Origin: Clostridiales bacterium
GTDB taxonomy: Bacteria > Bacillota > Clostridia > Tissierellales > GPF-1
Length of the DNA: 37,023 bases
Direction of reading: 5' to 3'
Assembly: GCA_013619125.1 (NCBI GenBank)
Contig: JABXKS010000090.1
Location: 1 to 37,023, forward strand
A program made the translations under genes and the position numbers. This document shows positions 3,185 through 36,790 of this stretch, in pieces (the stretch's first letter is position 1; every line of letters starts with the position of its first letter). The notes beneath the pieces were generated by a model. It saw nothing but the letters and a program-made list of their open reading frames with translations, searched no databases and had not been told where the DNA came from.

Positions 3185-3400
3185 TTACTCCTTGATTACG
3201 TCCTTCACACGTCCAACAATTCCGTCATCCAACATCACCTTGATTCCATGAGGATGCGTCGCCGATTTCGTCAAAAGCCGAGAGACGATTCCCTCTGTCA
3301 ATTCTCCCGTTCGTTGATGCGGTTTTTGCACAACCTTAACCTGGCTGCCTATTTTAATATTGCTTCTCTTCGTTCCATCCATATTCTTTCCCACTCTCAT
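3185..3400 (-). CDS. YwbE family protein (DUF2196)
   Basis: Small basic protein of the YwbE/DUF2196 family, function unknown. The family core is clear: KIGSQVKVVQKPHQRTGELT, then THPHGIKVMLDDGIVGRVK near the C-terminus. The chosen ATG at 3400 (71 aa) has AGGAAG about 7 bases upstream. A second ATG at 3382 gives 65 aa, close to the usual family length, but has a weaker ribosome site. A longer open frame to 3544 overlaps the end of the aminopeptidase gene and has no family similarity upstream, so it was rejected. The gene is 59 bases downstream of leucyl aminopeptidase and is probably co-transcribed. Confidence 0.85.
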   Translation of the reverse strand: MRVGKNMDGTKRSNIKIGSQVKVVQKPHQRTGELTEGIVSRLLTKSATHPHGIKVMLDDGIVGRVKDVIKE

Positions 3401-3459
3401 CAGATTCTTCCTAAAAAGAGACCGTGAAAGATTCCTCTTCCCGATCTCTCTATACCATA

Positions 3460-4914
3460 CTATGCTTTTGCCAAATAGTAAAGCGGTCTTACCGCAACAC
3501 CCGTTCCACCCTTTGAAAGAATTCCCTCTTCTTTTGTCGACCAAATGGTGCCGGCGATATCAATATGCACCCATGGCAAATTTCCCGTGAATTCCCCGAT
3601 AAACAGTCCCGCCGTAATGGTCCCCGGCTTCCCAGCCGTATTGGTTAGATCCGCCTCTTCATGCTTAATCAATTCCTTGTATTCGTCGAAGATCGGCATC
3701 CGCCAGATTTGTTCCCCACTGAGGGTAAAGGCTTCATTAACATCGTCAAAGAACTGATCGTCCGTGCCAATGGCTACGGATGCCGCCGAACCCGTGCAAT
3801 GCAAAGCCGCTCCCGTCAGTGTCGCAATATCCAATACCTTGGTGACCTTCTCTTCCGTTACGATATAATGCATCGCATCGATCAGGGTCAATCGCCCCTC
3901 CGCATCCGTATTGCCGATATAGATCGACTTTCCACCCATGGAGCCAATGATATCTCCTGGTCGATAACTACTGCCCGAGATCATATTCTCGCAGGCTGCC
4001 ACAACTGCAACGACGTTGCGTATTAACTTTGCTTCCGCAATTGCGCACATGGCGCCGATTACGGCTGCCGAACCGCCCATGTCGTCCTTCATAGTCACCA
4101 TGCTCGCTGTGGCCTTAATGGACAATCCACCTGCGTCATAGGTCAATCCCTTTCCGACATATCCAAGAATCTCTTCACTGTCAGGATCACCCATATAACG
4201 CATCACAATCAATCGTGGTTCAATGTCAGATGCCCGGGCAACGGATAAAAAGGCTTCCATCTGAAGCGCTTGAATTTCTTCCAATTCCTTGATCTCCACT
4301 TCAAAGCCGTTCTCTTCCCCCAATTCCTCAACACGCTGTGCAAGTGTAACGGAATTAATCACATTTGCCGGTTGATTCACCAAGTCGCGCGCGACCAAAT
4401 TTGCCGTCGCTAAGATTTCAGCCTCTTCAAAAACATGCGTATATCGGTCCGGTTCTTCGACAACAATCGCAAACGTCAGCTCTTCCGATTCTTTCTCTTC
4501 TTTTTCCTTAGATTTGAAGTCATCAAAAAGATAATCCGACATGATGGTCGCTTCCACTGCCGCCTTCACATAGGTATCATTGGTTGCCACATTCCCGCCA
4601 TCAAACAGAAGGGCACCTTTCTTCACTTTTTGTTTCTTCAAGGTCCTGAAACCATCGCCCAAAGCATGTAACAATTTTCGATATCCAATGTCGCCGCGTT
4701 TTCCCAAACCAAGCAAAACGATATTCACAAAAATTCCGTCTACCATTTTCGTCAGGATATATTGCGACCCGACTTTTCCCTCGAATCGTTTCGTCTCCAA
4801 CAATTGCTCAAAGGGAATTTCCAAGCCGTTAAAAACCAACTCCTCTTCGTACAGGGGAATCAACAATCCATCCAATTCTTTCTTCTTCCACTCGCTTGCC
4901 AATGATAAATTCAT
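3460..4914 (-). CDS. pepA: Leucyl aminopeptidase (M17 family)
   Basis: Cytosolic M17 metallo-aminopeptidase that removes N-terminal residues, preferentially Leu, from peptides. The C-terminal catalytic domain shows the metal and active-site blocks VGKGLTYDAGGLSIK, MKDDMGGSAAV and the family signature NTDAEGRLTLIDA. At 484 aa it has the usual length. An ATG at 4944 is also open, but AGGAGG sits 6 bases before the ATG at 4914, so that start is preferred. YwbE follows downstream. With the M42 aminopeptidase and the isoaspartyl dipeptidase it is one of three peptidases in the window, consistent with a peptide-using lifestyle (inference). Confidence 0.95.
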   Translation of the reverse strand: MNLSLASEWKKKELDGLLIPLYEEELVFNGLEIPFEQLLETKRFEGKVGSQYILTKMVDGIFVNIVLLGLGKRGDIGYRKLLHALGDGFRTLKKQKVKKGALLFDGGNVATNDTYVKAAVEATIMSDYLFDDFKSKEKEEKESEELTFAIVVEEPDRYTHVFEEAEILATANLVARDLVNQPANVINSVTLAQRVEELGEENGFEVEIKELEEIQALQMEAFLSVARASDIEPRLIVMRYMGDPDSEEILGYVGKGLTYDAGGLSIKATASMVTMKDDMGGSAAVIGAMCAIAEAKLIRNVVAVVAACENMISGSSYRPGDIIGSMGGKSIYIGNTDAEGRLTLIDAMHYIVTEEKVTKVLDIATLTGAALHCTGSAASVAIGTDDQFFDDVNEAFTLSGEQIWRMPIFDEYKELIKHEEADLTNTAGKPGTITAGLFIGEFTGNLPWVHIDIAGTIWSTKEEGILSKGGTGVAVRPLYYLAKA

Positions 4915-10101: not shown

Positions 10102-11295
10102 CTATGAAGTTTTACTCCATTCTGCCAATTGTCGACCAAATTTCCTACAAGTTTCACGAGCTTCTTCGTCAGGATTCCATAAAACGCCCAACGTTTCATC
10201 CCAAACCTCAAATCCCGCTTCTTTCAATTCTTTTTGGATTTGTTTTGGAGACTCGCCACTCCAGCCATAACTTCCAAAAGCGGCTGCTTTTTTATTTTTA
10301 AATTGTAAGCCTTTGATAATTTCGAGGTCGGCAGCCAAACCCGACAAAATCCCCTTGTTGATAGTCGAGGATCCGGCCACAATCATCTTCGATTTAAACA
10401 CTTCTGTAATCACATCATTTTTATCCGATGTCGCAACATTGAACAGCTTGATCTCCACCGTCGCATCCACAGCCTTGATTCCTGCAGCAATCTCTTCCGC
10501 CATCCTTCTGGTTGCATCCCACATCGTATCGTATAAAACTGTTATTTGATTCTCTTGGTACTGACCAGCCCATTCTAAGTACTTTTCAACAATTTGCGTA
10601 GGATTATCTCGCCACATAATACCATGTGATGGACAAATCATTTCCACAGGTACCTTCAATCCCAACACTTCATGAATCTTTCTTGTAACCAGAGAACTGA
10701 AAGGGGTTAAAATATTGGCATAGTATTTTGTTGCCTCTTGATACAATTCCGCTTGATCCACGAGATCGTTATACATCTTTTCAGAGGCAAAATGCTGTCC
10801 AAAAGCATCATTGCTGAAGAGGATCGCATCTTTCGTATAGTAGGTAAACATGCTATCCGGCCAATGCAACAATGGCGCTTCAATGAATACCAATTGTCCT
10901 TTCCCCAGATCCAACGTGTCCCCTGTTTTTACCGTTACGAAGTTCCAGTCTTCATGATATTGCCCCTTTAGGGATTTCACCGCATTTTTTGTGCAATAAA
11001 TTGGGACATTAGGAATTGCCTTCATCAACTCAGGCAAGGCACCACTGTGATCGATTTCACCATGATTCGCAATCACATAATCGATACGATTTAAATCGAT
11101 GGTTTTCTTTAATTCTTCAACATACTCTTTTGAAAAGGGACGCCAAACCGTATCAATTAGAGCAACTTTTTCATCTTGAATCAAATATGAATTGTATGAA
11201 GAGCCACGATGTGTAGAATACTCGTCCCCATGAAATTTCCTCAATTCCCAATCAATTTTACCAACCCACTGAATACGTTCATTAATTTGAAACAT
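10102..11295 (-). CDS. Flavodiiron protein (FprA family, O2/NO reductase)
   Basis: Cytoplasmic flavodiiron protein (397 aa) that reduces O2 to water, or NO, in anaerobes. The N-terminal metallo-beta-lactamase-like domain carries the diiron ligand motif H-x-E-x-D (ANHGEIDHSG), a further His in LLHWPDSMF, an Asp in LFSNDAFGQH and a His in CPSHGIMW. The C-terminal flavodoxin domain begins about residue 250 (ITVLYDTMWDATRRM) and contains the FMN-binding segment AAFGSYGWSGE. There is no rubredoxin extension, so an external donor is needed. AGAGGTG lies 5 bases before the ATG at 11295; a longer frame to 11346 lacks a ribosome site and similarity. It fits an oxygen-defence role. Confidence 0.94.
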   Translation of the reverse strand: MFQINERIQWVGKIDWELRKFHGDEYSTHRGSSYNSYLIQDEKVALIDTVWRPFSKEYVEELKKTIDLNRIDYVIANHGEIDHSGALPELMKAIPNVPIYCTKNAVKSLKGQYHEDWNFVTVKTGDTLDLGKGQLVFIEAPLLHWPDSMFTYYTKDAILFSNDAFGQHFASEKMYNDLVDQAELYQEATKYYANILTPFSSLVTRKIHEVLGLKVPVEMICPSHGIMWRDNPTQIVEKYLEWAGQYQENQITVLYDTMWDATRRMAEEIAAGIKAVDATVEIKLFNVATSDKNDVITEVFKSKMIVAGSSTINKGILSGLAADLEIIKGLQFKNKKAAAFGSYGWSGESPKQIQKELKEAGFEVWDETLGVLWNPDEEARETCRKFGRQLAEWSKTS

Positions 11296-11349
11296 CTTGC
11301 ACCTCTTTCCTGATTTTTGGAATAACACATTATTTTCTATATGCACATG

Positions 11350-12481: not shown

Positions 12482-12838
12482 TCAATTCGAAGTGTTTTCA
12501 AAACTACACCGACTAACGATCTCATATTGAGTTACAAACAAGTAATCATTCTGAGCCTCTAGGCCCTTATATACGATATGTAAATCATGAAGAATAATGA
12601 TCGGCAAAAAACTATTTTTCAATTCAAAAGCAACTTGTTCTTCCCCATATATGCCGTAGGATAATAATTTTATATCGCGATCGACCTGTTTTTGAACAGA
12701 CGTCGGACAGGTCAGTCGAAACGATTTCAATGCATCTAACTGCTTCTTCGCATCACTTGTTTCCTTTAAAAATATCGGTCCCTGAATATTATCCGGTTTC
12801 TCCGCGATTTTTCATTTAACAAAGTCCATAAATGGCAT
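12482..12838 (-). pseudogene. Broken NERD-domain (nuclease-related) gene
   Basis: The frame begins at an ATG (12838) with GGAGG 6-7 bases upstream and reads MPFMDFVK, then an in-frame TGA at codon 9. It reopens as KIAEKPDNIQGPIFLKETSD and continues to 12482. The downstream part is recognisably the N-terminal half of a NERD-domain protein: DRDIKLLSYGIYGEEQVAFE, then FLPIIILHDLHIVYKGLEAQ and NDYLFVTQYEI. The family continues from here with a conserved nuclease-like IECKN segment, but this copy instead ends in an unrelated tail, VSRCSFENTSN. It therefore has both a nonsense codon (possibly TGG to TGA) and a lost C-terminal half. The stretch without the stop is 82 codons from an internal Met. Confidence 0.7.
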
Positions 12839-21490: not shown

Positions 21491-22564
21491 ATGAAAACTA
21501 TGAATACACTCAAATTGATTGAAGATCTCTCCAACAGCTACGGCGCACCTGGTTTTGAAGAGGATGTATTAGAAACTGTACGATCGTATAAAGGAGATCT
21601 TTCGTATCAACGAGACTCCATGATGAACGGATATCTTAATCTTGAAAACAAAGATGGTAAAAAAATGACGATCATGCTCGATGGTCATCTTGACGAAGTT
21701 GCCTTTATGGTGCAGTCCATTGATGAAAAGGGCTTGCTTCATTTTATTAAGCTTGGCGGATGGGTTGACCACAATATTCCCGCCCATCTTGTTATGGTCC
21801 GAAATAACGATGGAGAATATATCCAAGGCATCGTCACCTCAAAGCCTCCACACTTTATGACAGAAGAAGAACGATTAAAAAAAATCACTTTTCATGATCT
21901 GCAAATCGATGTAGGTGCAACCTCTAGAGAAGAGGTCATCAATGACTTCAAGATCTCCGTCGCTGCTCCTATTGTTCCATTTGTAGAGTTTAGATACAAT
22001 GAGCGAAATCAAGTCATGATGGGAAAAGCATTCGATAATCGACTTGGCTGTGCCGCCGTCATGGAAGTCCTCAAACGCCTCCAGAATGAGGATACCGCCA
22101 TTCATGCGGTTGGAGCTTTGGCCGCTCAGGAAGAGGTCGGGACGCGAGGGGCGCAAGTAACTGCCAATCGTGTCAAGCCTGATCTCGCAATCGTATTCGA
22201 AGGTTCCCCTGCCGATGATGTATATCGCGATCAATATGCGATACAAGCCGCCCTCCATGGCGGACCGCAGATTCGACACCGAGACAACTCTTATGTCTCG
22301 CATCAGGGCTTCATTCGATTTGCGAAATCTATTGCGAAGAAGCATGATATCAACTGTCAGGATGCCGTGCGACTTTCCGGCGGAACCAACGCCGGCAAGA
22401 TTCACTTATCTAACGAAGGGGTTCCCACCTTGGTTTTGGGCATTCCAACACGATACGCACACACTCATTATTGCTACGCTTCTTATCGTGATTTTGAAGA
22501 TACCGTACAGCTTGCCGTAGAAATCATCAAAGAAATCACCGAAGAACTTATATACGAATTCTAA
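21491..22564 (+). CDS. M42 family aminopeptidase
   Basis: Cytosolic dinuclear metallo-aminopeptidase of the M42 family (glutamyl or deblocking aminopeptidase type, 357 aa), which usually forms a tetrahedral dodecamer. Ligand and catalytic motifs: DGHLDEVAFMVQ (His and Asp), KAFDNRLGCAAV (bridging Asp), QEEVGTRGA (catalytic Glu-Glu) and the C-terminal PTRYAHT (His). GAGAGG lies very close (2 bases) to the first ATG; a second ATG at 21500 has it at 11 bases and is the alternative start. It is divergent from the RpiR/Opp operon, so it probably trims the imported peptides. Confidence 0.93.
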   Translation: MKTMNTLKLIEDLSNSYGAPGFEEDVLETVRSYKGDLSYQRDSMMNGYLNLENKDGKKMTIMLDGHLDEVAFMVQSIDEKGLLHFIKLGGWVDHNIPAHLVMVRNNDGEYIQGIVTSKPPHFMTEEERLKKITFHDLQIDVGATSREEVINDFKISVAAPIVPFVEFRYNERNQVMMGKAFDNRLGCAAVMEVLKRLQNEDTAIHAVGALAAQEEVGTRGAQVTANRVKPDLAIVFEGSPADDVYRDQYAIQAALHGGPQIRHRDNSYVSHQGFIRFAKSIAKKHDINCQDAVRLSGGTNAGKIHLSNEGVPTLVLGIPTRYAHTHYCYASYRDFEDTVQLAVEIIKEITEELIYEF

Positions 22565-23249: not shown

Positions 23250-24263
23250 TTATTCAAATGTTTTAACAACTCTCTTCATCATTTTTCGAATCGGCAAATT
23301 ATACGGACAGCGCTCTTCACAAATTCCGCACTCCACACAATCTGAAGCATTCTTTGCTAAGTTTCCATAGCGGCCAACTGCCCAATCCTTCATATCATAG
23401 CGCTTATAGTATCCTTCAAACAAGAACTGCGTTGGAATGTCAATTTCCTGCGGACAAGGCAGGCAATATCCGCATCGGCGACAAAATTCGGATCCCAAGC
23501 GATCAACGATTACTTGAATTTCTGTTTCTTCCGATTCTGTCAGCGGATATTCATCCTGACCAATCGCCGTATTGATCGCGACCTGCTCAATATTATCCAT
23601 CCCAGGAATGGCGACAGTAATCGTCTCATTTTGCATAATATATTTCAAGCTCAAATCGCCTCGTTCAAATGCGCCACCAGCAATAGGCTTCATTACAATC
23701 ACGCCCATATCATGAGCGTGAGCGCGTTCAAAGAGTTCTTTCCCTTGATTTTCAATTGGATTGTATGGGAATTGAATGGTATCAAATTTCTCTGGATCCA
23801 AGAGTTTTTCCAACAGACTTGCTGTATGTGCCGTAATCCCGATGGCGCCAATCTTGCCGGCTTCCTTGGCTTCCACCAATGCACGGTAGCCCCCGTCTTC
23901 GCCCATCAACTGCTCATATTGCTCTTCTGTTTTAATCAAGTGTGCTTGATATAGATCAATATAATCTGTACGCAGATTTTGAAGACTGATTGCAATTTCT
24001 TTCTTCATTCCCTCATAATCACGCACCATGGTTTTTGTTGCCAAATGAACACGAGCTCGCAATTGATATTTTTCTAAGGCTGCACCGATATATTCTTCGC
24101 TTACCGTATAGCCTCTGGCAGTATCAATAAAATTAATCCCAGCATCCACGGCTGCTTTTACAACCTCCCCCGCCTGATCTTCAGTCAGTCGTTGCAAAGG
24201 AATTCCACCCAAACCAATTACTGATACCTCAATATTTGCTTTCCCCAGTCTTTTTTTCCTCAT
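23250..24263 (-). CDS. Aldo/keto reductase with C-terminal 4Fe-4S domain
   Basis: Fusion of an aldo/keto reductase barrel (about residues 1-245) and a two-cluster ferredoxin-like domain (about 255-325), 337 aa. The reductase part shows GLGGIPLQRL, the catalytic Asp and Tyr in FIDTARGYTVSEEYIGAAL, a Lys in LATKTM and a His in YQAHLI. The clusters are bound by FCRRCGYCLPCP and DCVECGICEERCP. This architecture is common in anaerobes and links NAD(P)H- or ferredoxin-type electron flow to carbonyl reduction, though the substrate is unknown. AAGGAGG precedes the ATG. Confidence 0.93.
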   Translation of the reverse strand: MRKKRLGKANIEVSVIGLGGIPLQRLTEDQAGEVVKAAVDAGINFIDTARGYTVSEEYIGAALEKYQLRARVHLATKTMVRDYEGMKKEIAISLQNLRTDYIDLYQAHLIKTEEQYEQLMGEDGGYRALVEAKEAGKIGAIGITAHTASLLEKLLDPEKFDTIQFPYNPIENQGKELFERAHAHDMGVIVMKPIAGGAFERGDLSLKYIMQNETITVAIPGMDNIEQVAINTAIGQDEYPLTESEETEIQVIVDRLGSEFCRRCGYCLPCPQEIDIPTQFLFEGYYKRYDMKDWAVGRYGNLAKNASDCVECGICEERCPYNLPIRKMMKRVVKTFE

Positions 24264-27936: not shown

Positions 27937-27975
27937 CCATTTTCACAAAAAGAATTCCATATGAATTCGCTCTAT

Positions 27976-28056
27976 GTCCCTCCGCTGGCATTATCCAGAT
28001 CAGGTAAAATGGTCTGAAGATCGCTCTTCACTCTCAGCCGCTTTAACAGCTCCCAT
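27976..28056 (-). promoter_or_regulatory. TPP riboswitch (THI element)
   Basis: The minus strand carries the conserved THI-box segments in order: GGGAGC, GGCTGAGAG, then ACCTGATCTGGATAATGCC followed by AGCGGAGGGA. The 5' GGGA and 3' AGGGA sides can close helix P1. The aptamer sits between a sigma-A promoter and a terminator hairpin, directly upstream of the thiamine salvage operon. Confidence 0.97.
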
Positions 28057-28067
28057 GTTCGTTTTCC

Positions 28068-29645: not shown

Positions 29646-30140
29646 TCATTGGTCTGTTTGCCCTTGCAACAAGCTCATTGCATCCTTATATTGCGGATAA
29701 ATCTTTCCCACCAATCGCCAAAACGATCGATCATGATTCATATGCTTTAAATGACACAATTCATGAACGACTACATAATCAATCGCTTCCATCGGGAAAA
29801 GAATGAGCCTCCAATGAAAGGTCAACTTGCGATCCGAACTGCAACTCCCCCATTGTGTCACCCGCTCTTTAATGGTGACCGAGCGCGCCTTAATGCGTAT
29901 TTGCGGTTGATAGACCCGCAATCTTTCTTCAATGATTTTTCGACTTTCTCTTTTATAAAATGCTTGAAGTGCGCTTGAAATCCCAGCTTCTTCTACAATC
30001 GAAGTGATACAGCGAAATTGAACACCGTCAAAGGTGATCTGTGGCTTCTTCTGATCAAGATCGATTTGAATCACAAGTGGATAACGCCGTCCCAAATACA
30101 TGCAAGATCCGCCTGTCATTTTTTCGTTCTTATTTTCCAT
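29646..30140 (-). CDS. YgjP-like (DUF45) zinc metallopeptidase, short N-terminus
   Basis: Putative zinc metalloprotease with the HExxH-type site HELCHLKHMNHDRSFW and the family motif TQWGSCSSDRKLTFHW. Compared with typical YgjP/UtpA-like proteins (about 230-240 aa), this 164 aa protein starts at the segment normally in the middle (MYLGRRYPL), so roughly 70 N-terminal residues are missing. The zinc-binding domain appears complete. The ATG at 30140 has only a weak ribosome site; the open frame reaches 30179, inside the upstream gene. It overlaps the end of the cysteine-cluster gene by 11 bases. It may be a natural short form or the product of a deletion. Confidence 0.8.
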   Translation of the reverse strand: MENKNEKMTGGSCMYLGRRYPLVIQIDLDQKKPQITFDGVQFRCITSIVEEAGISSALQAFYKRESRKIIEERLRVYQPQIRIKARSVTIKERVTQWGSCSSDRKLTFHWRLILFPMEAIDYVVVHELCHLKHMNHDRSFWRLVGKIYPQYKDAMSLLQGQTDQ

Positions 30141-30669
30141 ATCGATTCCGTCTTTCTTCCGATTCCGATTCCACAACAATTCTTATTTCCGGAATCTGCA
30201 GCAGAATTTCCCATCCCGCCAAAATTCCCTTTTCGAATTCAGGATTCCAGCAATCCCGCTGCGAAAGAAGAGGACATTTATGCACCTGCTCTTTTTCTAT
30301 CACCAGTTGGAGTTTTCCATCCTCGAGATGCGGTTCAAAGGGATATGTCCTGCACTGAACCGGGCGCAATTCTCGATTGCACTGGGTGACATCACGACAA
30401 AACCCATAAACCAGCTGTTCAATCCCTTCCGGCATTTCATACTCATCATTCTTATGGATTTCCACCGTATCGGCATCAATCAGATTTTCGCCCACCTGCA
30501 TCATTTCATACTCAAAGGGAAGAAAATAGATCCCCAATACTTCTCCATTCTCCATCTTACTTCGGCAACAATGCCCCTTACAAAGTTCGCCACAGTTCCC
30601 ATCGATGATCGTAGCACTCATCGCTTCGTAAGCCTTTAAAAATATCTCTTTATACGCCATTGTAATCAT
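30130..30669 (-). CDS. YkgJ family cysteine cluster protein
   Basis: Small cysteine-rich protein (179 aa) of the YkgJ/UPF0153-like family, thought to bind a metal or Fe-S centre; its role is unknown. Cysteine groups: GNCGELCKGHCCR near the N-terminus, FCRDVTQCNRELRPVQCRTY in the middle and HKCPLLSQRDC towards the C-terminus. The ATG at 30669 has AAAGG 4 bases upstream and the ATG at 30660 is the alternative; an open frame to 30741 is an unlikely extension. It is the upstream partner of the YgjP-like gene. Confidence 0.85.
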   Translation of the reverse strand: MITMAYKEIFLKAYEAMSATIIDGNCGELCKGHCCRSKMENGEVLGIYFLPFEYEMMQVGENLIDADTVEIHKNDEYEMPEGIEQLVYGFCRDVTQCNRELRPVQCRTYPFEPHLEDGKLQLVIEKEQVHKCPLLSQRDCWNPEFEKGILAGWEILLQIPEIRIVVESESEERRNRYGK

Positions 30670-30730
30670 CCATCCTTTTAATCTCTCCCTATCATACCAT
30701 ACTCTCTTCCACAAATTCATCAACAAGAAA

Positions 30731-30759
30731 AGCCGAAGCATAATTCAATCGCTTCGACT
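30731..30759 (-). terminator. Terminator of the hydrogenase operon
   Basis: CGAAGC (30734-30739) pairs with GCTTCG (30751-30756), with flanking partial pairing around an 11-base loop. On the minus strand it continues into GGCTTTTC. It lies about 20 bases past the HydA stop. Confidence 0.65.
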
Positions 30760-30776: not shown

Positions 30777-32480
30777 TCACGCCTGCCGGTTCGTATAATG
30801 CGTATGTAAAAGCTGGTGCGCCTTTTCACCGTTCGGTTCTCCAAAAAATTCATCATACAATTTCATGACAGCAGGATTTTTATGTGATTTTCGAATCTCT
30901 CGATTCTGATCAGTGGCGTAGATGCCAGCCATTCTCGCTTCCAGGATATTTTCAATGTCGGAAATTGGTTGGCCACCGCCTCCAATACAGCCTCCCGGGC
31001 ACGTCATGATCTCAATAAAATGATAATCCTCTTTATGCTGCAGCACTTGCACCGCATTCTCCAGCCCATTCGCCACTGCAACACGTATTATTGTCCCGTC
31101 AATATCAACGACTGCTTCTTTAATTCCTTTCAATCCTCTGATTTCGGCAAATTCGATTTCTTTCAATTCCTTTCCCGAAATCAATTCATATCCTGTCCGT
31201 AATGCAGCCTCCATCACTCCGCCCGAAACACCGAAAATCGCTGCCGCTCCCGTAGAAATCCCAAACGGCTGATCATACTCTCCATCTGGAAGGTTCAGAA
31301 AATCAAGTCCATATGCACGAATCAGCTTTCCCAATTCTCTTGTCGTTAAAACATAATCCACATCCTCTTTCAACTCCTCACGCGCCAACTCGTATTTCTT
31401 TGCCGTACACGGCATGATAGAGACGGAAATAATCTTATCGGGTGAAATTCCTTCTTGTTCTGCGTAATAAGTCTTCGCAAGGGTTCCAAACATTTGCTGC
31501 GGCGACTTGCAGGTAGATATATTCGGCAGCAATTCCGGATAATTATGCTCGGCAAACTTAATCCATCCTGGAGAACAGGAAGTGATCAAAGGCAAGACGC
31601 CATGATTTTTAATTCGATGGATAAACTCCGTTCCCTCTTCAATAATCGTTAAATCAGCGGTGAAATTCGTGTCAAAAACCTTATCCGCTCCCATTTTTTT
31701 CAAAGCCGTCACAATCTTTTTCTCCAAATTCATACCCAACGGCGCTCCAAACTCCTCCCCGATCGCTACACGCACGGCTGGCGCTGTTTGTATCACGACA
31801 TGGGTTTTGGGATCATTAATCGCTTGAATCACTTGATTCACATGATAAACCTCGTGGATCGCGCCGGTTGGGCAAGCCAATATACATTGCCCGCAATTTG
31901 TGCAGTCCACATTTCCAAGACCCTTCCCCATAAAGGTATCCACCTTAGTCGCAACGCCTCTTTCAGACATCGTTAAAATACCACCATGTTGTATCTCGTT
32001 GCAGGTTCGCACACAGCGACCGCACGAGATGCATTTCGATGTCTCAACCATAACACTTAGCGAGCTTGTATCCGTGGTCCACGGCTTTTCAATCGCCTCA
32101 TACTTTAATTCTGATACACCAATCTCTTCTGCCAGCTTTCTTAATTCGCAAGTACCGCTTTTCAAGCAGGTTAAACAATTCAACTCACAATCGAATGGAT
32201 GATTCGCAATAATCAACTGAAATATGTTCCGTCTTGTTTCCAGTACAATATCGGAATGCGTGAAAACCTCCATCCCTTCTCGAACCTCTTCCGCACAAGC
32301 AATTGGCAGATTGGTGTGTCCCTTCACTTCCACAATACAAAGCCGACATCCGCCGTAAATGCTGAGTCCTTCTTTATAGCACAGGGTCGGAATCTTATAA
32401 TGAAGTTTCTTCGCTGCTTCCAAAATCGTCGTCCCTGCTTCCACTTCAATCGCTTCCCTATTAATTTGTAATCGAATCAT
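30777..32480 (-). CDS. hydA: [FeFe]-hydrogenase catalytic subunit, HydA of NAD-linked complex
   Basis: Catalytic subunit (567 aa) that makes or oxidises H2. Domains: [2Fe-2S] with Cys34, 45, 48 and 62; a His/Cys cluster region (His94, Cys98, 102, 105, 111); two [4Fe-4S] clusters (Cys150/153/156/160 and 193/196/199/203); and the H-cluster domain with L1 TSCSPGW (300-306), L2 MPCTAKKYE (356-364) and L3 EIMTCPGGCIGGGGQP (490-505). The small-subunit tail ends in EKAHQLLHTHY. Two oddities: four extra residues between His94 and the CxxCx5C motif, and Ser in place of the second Cys of L1. It lies 4 bases after hydB in a three-gene operon. Confidence 0.95.
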   Translation of the reverse strand: MIRLQINREAIEVEAGTTILEAAKKLHYKIPTLCYKEGLSIYGGCRLCIVEVKGHTNLPIACAEEVREGMEVFTHSDIVLETRRNIFQLIIANHPFDCELNCLTCLKSGTCELRKLAEEIGVSELKYEAIEKPWTTDTSSLSVMVETSKCISCGRCVRTCNEIQHGGILTMSERGVATKVDTFMGKGLGNVDCTNCGQCILACPTGAIHEVYHVNQVIQAINDPKTHVVIQTAPAVRVAIGEEFGAPLGMNLEKKIVTALKKMGADKVFDTNFTADLTIIEEGTEFIHRIKNHGVLPLITSCSPGWIKFAEHNYPELLPNISTCKSPQQMFGTLAKTYYAEQEGISPDKIISVSIMPCTAKKYELAREELKEDVDYVLTTRELGKLIRAYGLDFLNLPDGEYDQPFGISTGAAAIFGVSGGVMEAALRTGYELISGKELKEIEFAEIRGLKGIKEAVVDIDGTIIRVAVANGLENAVQVLQHKEDYHFIEIMTCPGGCIGGGGQPISDIENILEARMAGIYATDQNREIRKSHKNPAVMKLYDEFFGEPNGEKAHQLLHTHYTNRQA

Positions 32481-32484
32481 CTTG

Positions 32485-33720
32485 TCACCTCAGCCTCTCT
32501 GAATCATTTTCAGGCAAATATCGTTCAAAATCATTTGGAATTTTTTCAATCGCGCTGACCAGCAGATTCCCTGCCGATTGCCCCAAGCCACATCGTGCTG
32601 CGCGACTTGTAGTTTCCGAAATTTCGCGAATAAGTTCCAAATACTCCCACCTTCCTTCAAACGCATGAATCTTGCTCAGCATCGTATGAATTTGTCGATT
32701 CCCCTCTTTGCAGGGAAAGCAGATGCCACAGGTTTCCTTTGAAAAGAAATCAGCCGCATTCTTCGCCATTTCGACTGCGTTGACCGTATCATCCGCCACA
32801 ATGACAGCGCCCGATCCAAGGGCGCTACCTGCTTTTTTCATGCTGCAGTAATCCACCTTCACATCGATTTCATCATTTATTAATAATTGTGTTGAGATTC
32901 CGCCAGGAATCACAAATTTCAATTCTCGATTGTCTATGATTCCGCCACCTAAATCGAAAATTATTTCACGTAACGAAACTTTTCCCAATTCAACTTCATA
33001 TACTCCGGGTTCTTTGATTCTTCCACTCAGAGAAATCAGCTTTGTTCCTCGACTTCCCTCCACGCCCATCGTTGAGTAGAATGCACCGCCATCTCGAATG
33101 ATTAATGGCAAATTACACAGAGTTTCAACATTGTTCACGATTGTCGGATGATTGAAAAGTCCTTTTGCCGTCGGGTAAGGCGGCTTGATTCTTGAATTCG
33201 GACGCACCCCTTCTATCGAATTGATCAAAGAAGTTTCATCTCCGCACACATAAGCGCCTTGACCAACAACGACTTCAACGCGCAATTTGACCCCGGTTTT
33301 TTCTTGAAGTGCTTCAATCACAGCTTCCGCTTTGTTGATTTCACTTTTCATCATTGCGATTGCTTGTCTATATTCTCCTCGAATATATATGTAGAGTTCA
33401 CGCGCATTTACAATAAAGGCAGACAATAGCATGCTTTCCAGCAAATATGCGGGGTTGTTCTCCATGATATATCGATCCTTGAAGGTTCCTGGTTCTCCTT
33501 CATCCGCATTGCAAATCAATACCACATCGTCTTTGTCCCATACAGCTTTCCACTTTCTTGCAGTTGGAAAAGCGGCTCCACCGCGACCAACCAGCTCCGA
33601 TTTTTCAAGTTCTCGGAAGCAGCTTTCCCGCCCCATCTCGATTCCTTGAAAAAGAAAATGATAGTCCCACGCTAAAGGACCTTGATCAATCAGCTTCTTC
33701 AGATAGATGCTTTCTTTCAT
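32485..33720 (-). CDS. hydB: NuoF-like diaphorase subunit HydB, short form
   Basis: FMN- and NADH-binding subunit (411 aa). Visible: GRGGAAFPTARKW and CNADEGEPGTFKDRYIME (FMN/NADH site), GAYVCGDETSLINSIEG, and the [4Fe-4S] ligands TCGICFPCKEG with a fourth Cys in AARCGLGQSAGN. Unlike the roughly 600 aa HydB of electron-bifurcating hydrogenases, it lacks both the N-terminal thioredoxin-like [2Fe-2S] domain and the C-terminal two-cluster ferredoxin domain. GAGGAG lies 8 bases before the ATG at 33720; a TTG at 33726 is also in frame. It passes electrons between NAD(H) and HydA. Confidence 0.93.
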   Translation of the reverse strand: MKESIYLKKLIDQGPLAWDYHFLFQGIEMGRESCFRELEKSELVGRGGAAFPTARKWKAVWDKDDVVLICNADEGEPGTFKDRYIMENNPAYLLESMLLSAFIVNARELYIYIRGEYRQAIAMMKSEINKAEAVIEALQEKTGVKLRVEVVVGQGAYVCGDETSLINSIEGVRPNSRIKPPYPTAKGLFNHPTIVNNVETLCNLPLIIRDGGAFYSTMGVEGSRGTKLISLSGRIKEPGVYEVELGKVSLREIIFDLGGGIIDNRELKFVIPGGISTQLLINDEIDVKVDYCSMKKAGSALGSGAVIVADDTVNAVEMAKNAADFFSKETCGICFPCKEGNRQIHTMLSKIHAFEGRWEYLELIREISETTSRAARCGLGQSAGNLLVSAIEKIPNDFERYLPENDSERLR

Positions 33721-33732
33721 AATCAATTCTCC

Positions 33733-34143
33733 TCACTCAATTAAATCAATAATTTCAATTGCCTTCTCAACAGTTAAGTTTTCATAAACGGCATCATTGA
33801 TCGTGATACATGGCGATACATTGCATAGTCCCAAGCATTCAACAAATTCCAGCGAAAAGCGTCCTTCCTCAGTTGTCATACCATCTCCGATTCCCAAGTG
33901 AGCCATAATTGCTTCACGGATCGCTTGGCTGCCATTCATTCCACAGGTAACCGACTTACAAACGCGAATGATGTTTTTTCCCTTTTTTTCTGTGTACAAT
34001 CTGGAGTAAAAAGAAATCACTCCGTACAATTGAGCCTTTTGCATATTCATTTCAGCTGCCAGCCTAACAATCTCATTTTCCGGTATGTAGCCGAATTTCT
34101 CTTGGATTTCAGCCAATTCATTAATTAAAATACGCATTCCCAT
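33733..34143 (-). CDS. hydC: NuoE-like [2Fe-2S] subunit HydC
   Basis: Thioredoxin-fold [2Fe-2S] subunit (136 aa) of the NAD-linked hydrogenase. The four ligands are VCKSVTC (C-x4-C) and ECLGLC (C-x3-C). The N-terminal helical region LAEIQEKFGYIPENEIVRLA and the GVISFYSRLYTEKKG segment are typical of NuoE/HydC. The ATG at 34143 has AAGGAG 4 bases upstream, and the ATG at 34137 is the alternative; the frame to 34179 is an unlikely extension. First gene of the operon, 12 bases before hydB. The 150-base upstream region is A/T-rich and I could not fix a promoter in it. Confidence 0.93.
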   Translation of the reverse strand: MGMRILINELAEIQEKFGYIPENEIVRLAAEMNMQKAQLYGVISFYSRLYTEKKGKNIIRVCKSVTCGMNGSQAIREAIMAHLGIGDGMTTEEGRFSLEFVECLGLCNVSPCITINDAVYENLTVEKAIEIIDLIE

Positions 34144-34295
34144 CACACTCCTTATCATTCTTCTACCCGGGAATGCCAATAAAACCCAAAAGATTATTAA
34201 TCATTTATCAATCTTTATTCATACAAACAGTTTAAATCCTCTTTGTTTTTCAAATCGAATTCGACTTTTCTATATCCACATCTAATTCCAGCATT

Positions 34296-34835: not shown

Positions 34836-35038
34836 CATTTTCTCCTTTCCATTCACTTAAACATTCACCTATTACATACCCGCTACTCATCGTATCTATT
34901 TAAATATTCAATGACAGATTGTCCGCCCTCTTCAAACGATAAAGGTTTGAATTGTTAGTCGGAACCCGTAAATCACTTATAAATCCTGTATAATATAATA
35001 GAAGAACTTATAGATCAATCGTGGAATAAGGAGCGCAA

Positions 35039-35614
35039 ATGAAGCCGAAGGTAATGGAATTTAAGGAGAAAACTCAATTTCGCAAGTGGTTGGAAATCAA
35101 TCACGCGGAACATAAAGGAGTCGATATCTATCTTTACAAGAAAGGCTATGAACACCTTGGTCTCACATACGAGGATGCCGTACGCACTGCGCTTTGCTAC
35201 GGATGGATTGATGCAGTTACCCATAGCCATGATGAAAAAAGATTCCGACAATACTTTGCTCCGCGTCAAAAAAGAAGTAATTGGTCACTCAGTAATATCA
35301 TCCGTATGAAAGAGCTTATAGAAAATAATGAAGTGACAGCTTTTGGGTTGCAATACTTCGATCTCACCTTGCTTGATCATCTCAATGAGAAGATTGCAGA
35401 GGATCAAGCCTTCAAAAAAAAACCTGCGCAGATCCCTGATTTTTTTCAAATCATGCTGTCCAAAGAAAATGCTGAGACTCTTTTCCGTTCAGAAACGCCC
35501 TCCGCCCAAAGACGATATGTCAGCTATATTCTTGATGCGAAAAAGAAGGAAACCAAAATTCGCAGATGCAATAAAATCATTGCTATTTTACGCGGTGGAA
35601 AAAATAATTTGTGA
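35039..35614 (+). CDS. YdeI/OmpD-associated family protein
   Basis: A 191 aa protein of the YdeI/OmpD-associated family, whose function is poorly defined. The conserved core is visible: VDIYLYKKGYEHLGLTYEDA, then ALCYGWIDAVTHSHDEKRF and the APRQKRSNWS segment. The C-terminal region AQRRYVSYILDAKKKETKIR is also family-typical. AAGGAG lies 5 bases before the ATG. A TATAAT at 34989-34994 is the probable -10, without a strong -35. It is convergent with the secreted repeat protein, separated by a shared terminator. Confidence 0.9.
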   Translation: MKPKVMEFKEKTQFRKWLEINHAEHKGVDIYLYKKGYEHLGLTYEDAVRTALCYGWIDAVTHSHDEKRFRQYFAPRQKRSNWSLSNIIRMKELIENNEVTAFGLQYFDLTLLDHLNEKIAEDQAFKKKPAQIPDFFQIMLSKENAETLFRSETPSAQRRYVSYILDAKKKETKIRRCNKIIAILRGGKNNL

Positions 35615-35683: not shown

Positions 35684-36613
35684 TTATTTTGTTTTTGCCT
35701 TCCCATTGTTTGATTTCACTTTTTTCTTTACAGCACTCTGTACCGTGGTGCGATTTGATTTTGTCATGGATTGAATTTCTTTTACTGACAATACCGACCA
35801 TGAAGCGTAGTCCATTTCCTCATCTTCGAGAAATGCACCCAATTTATCAAGCAAATTCATTTTGCCCGGGGTAATGCGGTAAATCGCAGCATTTAGGAAT
35901 CTTTCAGCATTTGGGTTGTCGCTATCCAATGCAACTGCTTGTAATTTCAACAGCTCTGCATAGCCTTCTTCCAACATCGTCATCAACGACTCTGCCATTT
36001 CACTATTCGCAAAGATGTCCAGCTCAATGGGGCCTTCAAAATCGCCGCTTGCCAAAAGCAAGTCAATTCCTTCTGTAACACTTAATCCAATATATTCTGC
36101 ATAAGGATCCGCTGGTGCAACTGGTTCTTCTACCGGTTCAGCAGGCTCTTCTGCCGGTTCAGCAGGCTCTTCTGCCGGTTCAGCAGGCTCTTCTGCCGGT
36201 TCAGCAGGCTCTTCTGCCGGTTCTGCAGCTGGTTCTTCTACCGGTGCAGCAGGCTCTTCTACCGGTGCAACAGGCTCTTCTACCAGTGCAGCTGGCTCTT
36301 CTACCAGTGCAGCTGGCTCTTCTGGATTCATTTCAAGTTCCGTTGTAACAGATACAATCACACCATCTTCCGCAACGAAAACAAGATCCGAACCAACATC
36401 GAAACGCAAATAACTCACTTCTGGTTCTGCAACCGGTTCATCTAACAGAACTGGCTCCTCTGCCGGTGCAGTTTCTTCAACAACTGCTGGTTCTTCTACA
36501 ACTGCTGGTTCTTCAACAACTGGGGCGACTACATCAGCAAAAGCTGAAACACCACTCAAAGAAATCAACAACATTACTACAAGTACACGAGTCAACAATT
36601 TACTTCTTTTCAT
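35684..36613 (-). CDS. Secreted Pro/Glu-repeat protein with RsgI-like segments
   Basis: An exported protein of about 309 aa. It has a signal peptide (about residues 1-27, ending SAFA), a Val/Pro/Glu-rich stretch, and then a short segment SYLRFDVGSDLVFVAEDGV (68-86). A repeat block of EEPA units (98-169) follows, then a folded-looking domain (about 175-230) with YIGLSVTEGIDLLLASGDFE and ELDIFANSEMAESLMTMLEE, and finally a strongly basic tail (KKKVKSNNGKAKTK). The two segments flanking the repeats faintly resemble the extracellular half of RsgI-type anti-sigma factors, apparently split by the repeats; this is a guess. Function unknown. AAGGAGG lies 6 bases before the second of two ATGs. Its leader contains a c-di-GMP-I riboswitch. 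Confidence 0.85.
   Translation of the reverse strand: MKRSKLLTRVLVVMLLISLSGVSAFADVVAPVVEEPAVVEEPAVVEETAPAEEPVLLDEPVAEPEVSYLRFDVGSDLVFVAEDGVIVSVTTELEMNPEEPAALVEEPAALVEEPVAPVEEPAAPVEEPAAEPAEEPAEPAEEPAEPAEEPAEPAEEPAEPVEEPVAPADPYAEYIGLSVTEGIDLLLASGDFEGPIELDIFANSEMAESLMTMLEEGYAELLKLQAVALDSDNPNAERFLNAAIYRITPGKMNLLDKLGAFLEDEEMDYASWSVLSVKEIQSMTKSNRTTVQSAVKKKVKSNNGKAKTK
36110..36325 (-). repeat. 21-base tandem repeats encoding EEPA heptads
   Basis: About ten units of 21 bases, each encoding seven residues of the type x-EEPA-x-P. The four units at 36134-36217 (AEEPAEP) are nearly identical at DNA level, and outer units are diverged (VEEPAAP, LVEEPAA). Such an array can change copy number by slippage without breaking the frame. 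Confidence 0.88.
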
Positions 36614-36656
36614 CATAAACCTCCTTCAAAATTTTTGGAGATCCGAAATGAAAGTC

Positions 36657-36699: not shown

Positions 36700-36790
36700 T
36701 GACTCTTCGGCAACTGGCTGCCAACTCAATGAGTAAGGCCCTAAAGTTTTGCGTCCTTGTTTTTCAACAAGTTTGCCATTATCGGATACA
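36700..36790 (-). promoter_or_regulatory. Cyclic-di-GMP-I riboswitch (GEMM-I)
   Basis: The minus strand shows the GEMM-I landmarks in order: AATGGCAAACTTGTTGAAAA with its P2 hairpin arm and GAAA-type loop, CAAGGACGCAAAACTTTAGG completing P2, then GGGCC. The P3 arm ends with GGCAGCCAGTTGCCG, equivalent to the consensus GGTAGGCGGGTTACCG. The element begins about 6 bases after the promoter -10. Together with the following terminator it forms a switch in front of the secreted repeat-protein gene. Confidence 0.88.

Follow-up and report, generated by a model that had tools for sequence, protein, structure and literature searches.

The window analysed here, a stretch of 37,023 nucleotides that constitutes one contig of a clostridial genome of 3.42 Mb in 130 contigs, carries a hydCBA gene cluster which very probably (we estimate a probability of about 0.87) encodes a soluble trimeric [FeFe]-hydrogenase that is NADH-dependent, ferredoxin-independent and non-bifurcating, of the kind represented by Hyd1 of Syntrophomonas wolfei. 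The sequence-only reading of this DNA had already proposed an NADH-dependent, non-bifurcating enzyme, and residue criteria, phylogenetic trees and the finding of no extra gene in the operon now lend support to that proposal. The reading is built on domain content, residue states, phylogeny and the co-residence of a second hydrogenase. NADH rather than NADPH is the expected substrate, judging from the family, and function is transferred over some distance, since the named relatives outside the lineage of the window are about 37–46% identical in HydB among the matches listed.

The three genes are arranged on the minus strand in the order hydC, hydB, hydA. The hydC gene (33733..34137) encodes a NuoE-like [2Fe-2S] gamma subunit of 134 residues from an ATG at 34137 that is preceded by AAGGAG; a longer open reading frame starting with TTG begins at 34179. 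The hydB gene (32485..33720) encodes a NuoF-like beta subunit of 411 residues from its ATG at 33720, with GAGGAG upstream, or of 413 residues from an alternative TTG start (32485–33726); residue numbers of HydB given below follow the 413-residue version. The hydA gene (30777..32480) encodes an M3-type [FeFe]-hydrogenase catalytic subunit of 567 residues. All reading frames are intact and lie 4–12 bases apart, and the same architecture recurs in both other genomes of the genus, where HydB is 80–85% identical, so that an assembly break can be excluded as the cause of the short HydB. A 203-residue protein with nine cysteines (30130–30741, minus strand) adjoins hydA downstream in all three genomes of the genus; it has no Pfam match and contains none of the ferredoxin-type or NuoE-type cysteine patterns scanned.

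The clearest feature of the HydB protein is its limited domain content. Only Complex1_51K and NADH_4Fe-4S exceed their Pfam cut-offs, with SLBB_2 scoring below its cut-off, and the protein consists of an FMN/NADH domain, an SLBB-like region and one [4Fe-4S] (N3-like) site. This site (32590..32730, minus strand), formed by a CxxCxxC motif (ETCGICFPC) and C379, is the sole cluster motif in HydB. Both Pfam and the motif reading thus agree with the initial description of HydB as a NuoF core of 411 residues. By sequence the protein matches solved NuoF and HydB chains at E-values of about 1e-88, and it scores 382.9 bits against the complex I NuoF family TIGR01959, below the cut-off of 558.65. The full-length HydB encoded elsewhere in the same genome (597 residues) served as a control: with the same Pfam library, it shows 2Fe-2S_thioredx at residues 5–81 and Fer4 from residue 542, so the absence of both terminal Fe-S domains from the window HydB, as originally noticed, does not reflect a failure of the search. 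The lengths point the same way, with 44 residues ahead of the GRGG motif and 31 behind CGLG in the window HydB versus 165 and 93 in the full-length protein. The C-terminal 4Fe-4S domain (IPR017896) that is a trait of the BfuABC family is likewise absent from the window HydB. A separate gene supplying a missing domain had been named as an observation that would count against the proposal. In a six-frame scan of the whole window, ferredoxin- or NuoE-type cysteine motifs were found only in HydA, HydC and, distant from the operon, a protein assigned by Pfam as an aldo/keto reductase (23250–24263); in the operon regions of two congeners such patterns occurred only in HydA and HydC. On the basis of this motif scan, a separate gene for the missing domain was rejected for the operon in the three genomes of the genus. 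Profile coverage of the window was by NCBIfam only for the open reading frame at 21491–22564, and those at 3185–3544, 12482–12730 and 35015–35269 were covered by the motif scan instead of by profiles.

According to Losey 2020 (PMC7311640), bifurcating and non-bifurcating enzymes cannot be told apart simply by counting Fe-S domains, and because missing domains alone are not diagnostic, the published residue criteria were applied. The same study gives, as the non-bifurcating state, T or S at position 232 and K, S or A at position 234 of Thermotoga maritima HydB, and Schut et al. 2022 (PMC9304861) name A202 and M204 in A. mobile as further residues. In the window HydB the corresponding stretch is T81-F82-K83 (33478..33486, minus strand, in GEPGTFKDR), a non-bifurcating state where a bifurcating enzyme would have A-F-M; positions 232 and 234 were mapped by way of A. 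mobile A202/M204 and not through the T. maritima sequence itself. At a third position, which is F in bifurcating HydB, the window protein has Y159 (33250..33252, minus strand, in GAYVCG), again the non-bifurcating state. The published number for this F/Y position, 367, is inconsistent with the offset that holds for the remaining sites, and its mapping to GAYVCG is our own; at a second candidate position (FYST versus WFSS) the window HydB also has Y. A GGIST sequence (32890..32904, minus strand) is found in the SLBB region where bifurcating HydB has GGPSG. None of the four His/Cys ligands of the Zn/[2Fe-2S] (B2) site is present, their places being taken by N, Y, S and a gap. The A, M and F residues of BfuABC at the NADH and FMN sites are thus all absent from the window HydB, and non-bifurcating states were found in all nine aligned HydBs of the lineage, the window included. 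The full-length HydB of the same genome combines A, M and F with GGPSG and the complete set of four ligands, and is bifurcating on every criterion. References 7q4v and 7t2r show bifurcating states as far as their trimmed sequences reach. Chain 6hl2_B, which we take to be Aquifex NuoF, scores like the window HydB, with T, K and Y residues and no Zn site.

Short HydB proteins from another lineage present a different picture of the His/Cys tail. Those of L019/L146 (both from genome G248) and of loci such as L100, L102 and L106 keep a tail of the form H-x4-C-x4-C, while full-length HydB has H-x5-C-x4-C with one residue more; their ferredoxin domain is absent and their residues are non-bifurcating despite the Zn/[2Fe-2S]-like tail. 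The His of this His/Cys-ligated site is said by Schut et al. 2022 (PMC9304861) to be absent from non-bifurcating homologs, a claim with which these proteins sit badly. Fer4 and Zn-tail states are unreliable for HydB proteins that are cut at the end of a locus or lack the anchor motif, and these states did not enter the counts.

HydA contains, by Pfam, a Fer2_4 domain, the NADH-G His-cluster domain, a 2x[4Fe-4S] domain, Fe_hyd_lg_C and Fe_hyd_SSU. The last of these ends at residue 565 of 567, consistent with the earlier remark that HydA stops after its small-subunit tail. HydA passes the NCBIfam model FeFe_hydrog_A6 for the NADH-dependent group A6 (822.5 bits, cut-off 765), as does the bifurcating-type HydA of the same genome (902.3 bits), and therefore this model does not separate the two kinds. 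The His-type cluster site of HydA, H-x3-C-x3-C-x2-C-x5-C (residues 94–111; 32148..32201, minus strand), is four residues longer than the usual H-x3-C-x2-C-x5-C motif and contains an additional Cys. This extra-Cys motif was found in nine of the 68 tabulated HydA rows, all belonging to the window lineage, and represents one change on the tree. In T. maritima the His-type cluster forms the Y-junction between HydA subunits (PMC9499530).

The L1 motif of the H-cluster is TSCSPGW (31563..31583, minus strand) in the window HydA and TSCCPAW in the bifurcating-type HydA of the genome. When aligned with CpI, its Ser falls on Cys300, presumably an H-cluster ligand, and Cys299 is kept. The latter residue is the start of the proton path in CpI (PMC8163306). 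Among the rows of the HydA tree, TSCSP occurs in 33 of 33 labelled non-bifurcating and in three unlabelled ones, of which one (G910, contig C67) is non-bifurcating by the residue test of its HydB; TSCCP occurs in 27 of 29 labelled bifurcating, the exceptions including 7q4v_A, which carries TSCSP. As a test of bifurcation the TSCSP/TSCCP difference was dropped: the tree shows no more than two changes in L1, the pattern is confounded by ancestry, and with so few independent pairs we do not claim TSCSP as a marker.

Family tree analysis agrees with the residue states. The HydB tree comprises 58 cores (quick IQ-TREE run, SH-aLRT support; S. wolfei is not among the rows) and leaves out eight of 63 loci, i.e. 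L142 and L143 (the two of G910), L069, L091, L045, L048, L060 and L062. The 20 rows labelled bifurcating by their residues, two of which are references, form one clade with support of 100. The window lineage, six rows with support of 100, lies apart from this clade among short and complex-I-like forms; it groups the window HydB with that of G931 (by inferred name Acetohalobium arabaticum) and with those of a small number of further genomes in the phylum. Non-bifurcating HydBs adjoining a HydA are spread over several lineages including that of the window. A larger one of 17 rows contains many members with the His/Cys tail, and another, of about 550 residues, is sister to the bifurcating clade. 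Six proteins (L124, L127, L130, L132, L135 and L137; 463–554 residues) have T and K, Y, and GGTSG, with a tail too short for a ferredoxin domain and in most cases an N-terminal extension; placed as sister to the bifurcating clade, they are possible intermediates in the gain or loss of bifurcation. At locus L120 (G864:C84) the HydB match contains one in-frame TAA, yet an open reading frame of 410 residues covers the core. In the HydA tree of 65 rows, the window HydA belongs to a clade of nine (SH-aLRT 99), in agreement with the HydB tree; eight of the nine are labelled non-bifurcating and the ninth is so by the residue test of its HydB. Labels in the HydA tree were set by script, except for two reference rows and the window, which were labelled by hand. 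The labels rest on the very residues that the tests examine, so the two overlap in part as evidence. The phylogeny suggested at the outset as a check thus places both subunits in a well-supported lineage, apart from HydBs with bifurcating residues.

The short form of HydB was found in all three genomes of its family, in which one genus is sampled. In the order, four of 249 genomes match HydB at E<=1e-100, the fourth (G248) being of a different type. Samples of the class and phylum gave matches in 20 of 391 genomes (E<=1e-92) and in 15 of 398 (E<=1e-95), counts that include the own genome and some bifurcating-type matches. The closest relative outside the genus, found in the 398-genome phylum sample, is G931 with 60% identity in HydB. 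A scan of named relatives yielded at least 80 loci, with a best HydB identity of 46% among the matches listed; the letters of published S. wolfei primers are absent from the relatives' loci scanned, and in the order of a Syntrophomonadaceae MAG (L074) none of 20 genomes matched HydB at E<=1e-97.

The genome encodes more than the window enzyme. Four genes with a NuoF-type FMN domain could be identified: the window hydB, its full-length counterpart on contig C52 and two genes some 450 codons long, one of which lies on contig C123 among rnf-like genes and reads, by eye, as RnfC. Contig C52 encodes HydC, a free-standing [2Fe-2S] protein of 129 residues, HydB of 597 residues and HydA of 581 residues; its HydB matches 7q4v_B with an E-value of 2.2e-261. 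Five [FeFe]-hydrogenase-type domains are present in total (one each on C52, the window and C123, and two on C81), and two free-standing [2Fe-2S] thioredoxin-type proteins besides the HydC subunits, on C52 and C81. With this full-length HydABC the cell can probably bifurcate, and the organism would not be non-bifurcating overall, so that the physiology is read differently from how it would be from the window alone. A full-length, bifurcating-type HydB accompanies the short form in all seven lineage genomes searched and also in G248 of another lineage, i.e. in eight of eight searched in all. An eighth lineage genome, G1024, also has bifurcating residues in two HydBs, read without their N-terminal ends, so that a HydB of bifurcating type accompanies the short form in each of the eight lineage genomes examined. 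In the order of G931, however, 13 of 13 genomes have a HydA match (E<=1e-150), and the HydB beside it, where tabulated, is mostly of the bifurcating type; the co-residence may therefore be no more than background.

We propose that electrons would pass from NADH to the FMN and on to the N3-type [4Fe-4S] cluster of HydB, then through the [2Fe-2S]/[4Fe-4S] chain of HydA to the H-cluster, in a reversible manner, with the [2Fe-2S] cluster of HydC acting as a side cluster. The chain would be single and linear: as HydB lacks the N-terminal [2Fe-2S] domain, the Zn/[2Fe-2S] site and the C-terminal two-cluster domain, a second path for the entry of ferredoxin, and with it bifurcation, is not expected. 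Because these domains are missing and the residues at the flavin resemble those of complex I, the enzyme is expected to bring NADH/NAD+ and H2 into equilibrium. Formation of H2 from NADH is favourable only at low H2; the enzyme would make H2 from NADH at low H2, and take up H2 and produce NADH at high H2. As the same genome has a separate bifurcating-type HydABC and rnf-like genes, the window enzyme probably acts as a conditional NADH/H2 valve. Motif counts predict about 26 Fe and 1 FMN per trimer; for S. wolfei the prediction was 30 Fe and the measured value 29.2 (PMC5626996).

Ferredoxin coupling might nevertheless be retained by a domain acting in trans, from the 129-residue [2Fe-2S] protein or the ferredoxin domains encoded on C52, from the C81 protein or within a mixed complex. 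Such genes do exist in this genome: next to the full-length HydABC, C52 encodes an additional [2Fe-2S] subunit, and a further gene of this sort lies on C81. In S. wolfei, a related formate dehydrogenase accompanied Hyd1ABC through purification (PMC5626996). However, the window HydB carries non-bifurcating residues at its NADH and FMN sites and in its SLBB region and has lost the Zn/[2Fe-2S] ligands, so that even the flavin site appears altered, and in the three genomes of the genus no such gene lies in the operon; we regard coupling in trans as very unlikely. Alternatively, ferredoxin could act directly at HydA, as in CpI, making the trimer a ferredoxin/NAD+/H2 hub without strict coupling, in line with the N-terminal [2Fe-2S] and His-cluster domains that HydA shares with CpI-like enzymes. 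Multimerization of HydA blocks the corresponding site in the T. maritima enzyme (PMC9499530), and the Y-junction motif of the window HydA is altered, which leaves this hub with little probability. That the enzyme is instead a degenerate or minor one, decaying after duplication or transfer and with little present function, appears the least credible of these explanations: HydB is indeed less conserved within the genus (80–84%) than the bifurcating-type HydB (94–96%), but throughout the genus (three of three genomes) and in remote relatives the three subunits have open frames and retain their cluster motifs, and HydA is 89–92% conserved within the genus.

A more far-reaching reading, which we consider doubtful, is that the window enzyme represents a distinct lineage with a remodelled Y-junction of five possible ligands and a retuned HydA-HydA/ferredoxin route, strictly NADH-linked and switchable with its bifurcating partner. 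If so, the change in this cluster would interrupt or retune the route between HydA subunits and to ferredoxin, and the pair of enzymes would form a switchable, H2-mediated link from the ferredoxin pool to the NADH pool. Enzymes predicted to be non-bifurcating are already on record for numerous genera that are not known to be syntrophic (PMC7311640); Acetohalobium is absent from the main text of that paper. Judged from sequence, the window enzyme is most likely a further example of this known NADH-linked, non-bifurcating kind.

Upstream of hydC, a palindrome resembling a Rex operator (34194..34211, no strand assigned) has two mismatches to the Rex consensus. Shuffled sequences scored as well in 9 of 500 cases for the window, and in 19 and 14 of 500 for two congeners, compared with 68 to 495 of 500 for six other upstream regions; over the whole window, four matches were seen against 3.48 expected. 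We tentatively regard it as a weak Rex-like site and a candidate only. Rex is a sensor of NADH/NAD+, and the Rex-type gene (by Pfam domains) that directly follows hydA in G817 and G864 fits an NADH-linked role; in the window no Rex-type gene adjoins hydA. In G817 (L141, 2–1299) a second hydA end followed directly by a second, by eye Rex-like gene lies upstream of the operon. Three relatives, two of the window lineage and G248 (L140, L143 and L146), have upstream of hydC a sensor-like protein in which an [FeFe]-hydrogenase domain is fused to a sigma-54 activator domain, which suggests H2- or redox-sensing control of their operons.

Other features of the window include a c-di-GMP-I-GGC riboswitch (36705–36786, minus strand, 67.2 bits) upstream of a 310-residue protein (35684–36616) with Glu/Pro-rich repeats that is probably exported, and a TPP riboswitch (27960–28066, minus strand) ahead of a thiamine gene cluster encoding a ThiT-type transporter, TenA, hydroxyethylthiazole kinase and a ThiE-ThiD-type fusion. 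A flavodiiron-type protein with ODP beta-lactamase and flavodoxin domains (10102–11346, minus strand) is likely an O2 or NO reductase.

The matched pair of a bifurcating-type and an apparently non-bifurcating HydABC in one cell would make the role of the extra HydB domains testable by domain swaps. The presence of hydABC genes alone does not fix how NADH, ferredoxin and H2 are coupled; HydB needs to be read residue by residue.

Among known systems, S. wolfei Hyd1ABC, which uses NADH and neither needs nor reduces ferredoxin (PMC5626996), resembles the window enzyme, by description, in its trimeric HydABC, single FMN site and separate HydC, and in a HydB of 407 residues without the N-terminal [2Fe-2S] and C-terminal [4Fe-4S] domains; the window genome additionally has a bifurcating-type HydABC and rnf-like genes. 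Syntrophus aciditrophicus HydAB, the source of the residue criteria used here, is also a non-bifurcating NADH-dependent [FeFe]-hydrogenase, assayed with NADH without ferredoxin, but has HydC fused to HydB and an alpha2beta2 assembly (PMC7311640). The HydCBA proteins of G931 (L139) are about 60% (HydB, 411 residues) and 65% (HydA) identical to those of the window and share the residue states, the extra-Cys HydA motif and full-length bifurcating-type HydBs elsewhere in the genome; this organism belongs to another class of the same phylum, and a DegS-like kinase gene follows its hydA. Complex I NuoEF shares with the window the HydB core with one [4Fe-4S] cluster, the T, K and Y residues and the lack of a Zn site (6hl2_B), whereas the partner in the window is an H-cluster HydA instead of NuoG and HydB remains below the NuoF cut-off. 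Finally, the bifurcating HydABC enzymes (7q4v and 8a6t, which we take to be those of A. woodii and T. kivui, 7p5h of T. maritima, and BfuABC) have the core families of HydA and HydB and the cluster chain in common with the window enzyme, and differ from it in the extra HydB domains, the A, M and F residues, GGPSG and the Zn/[2Fe-2S] site, as seen in 7q4v and in the C52 HydB of the same genome.
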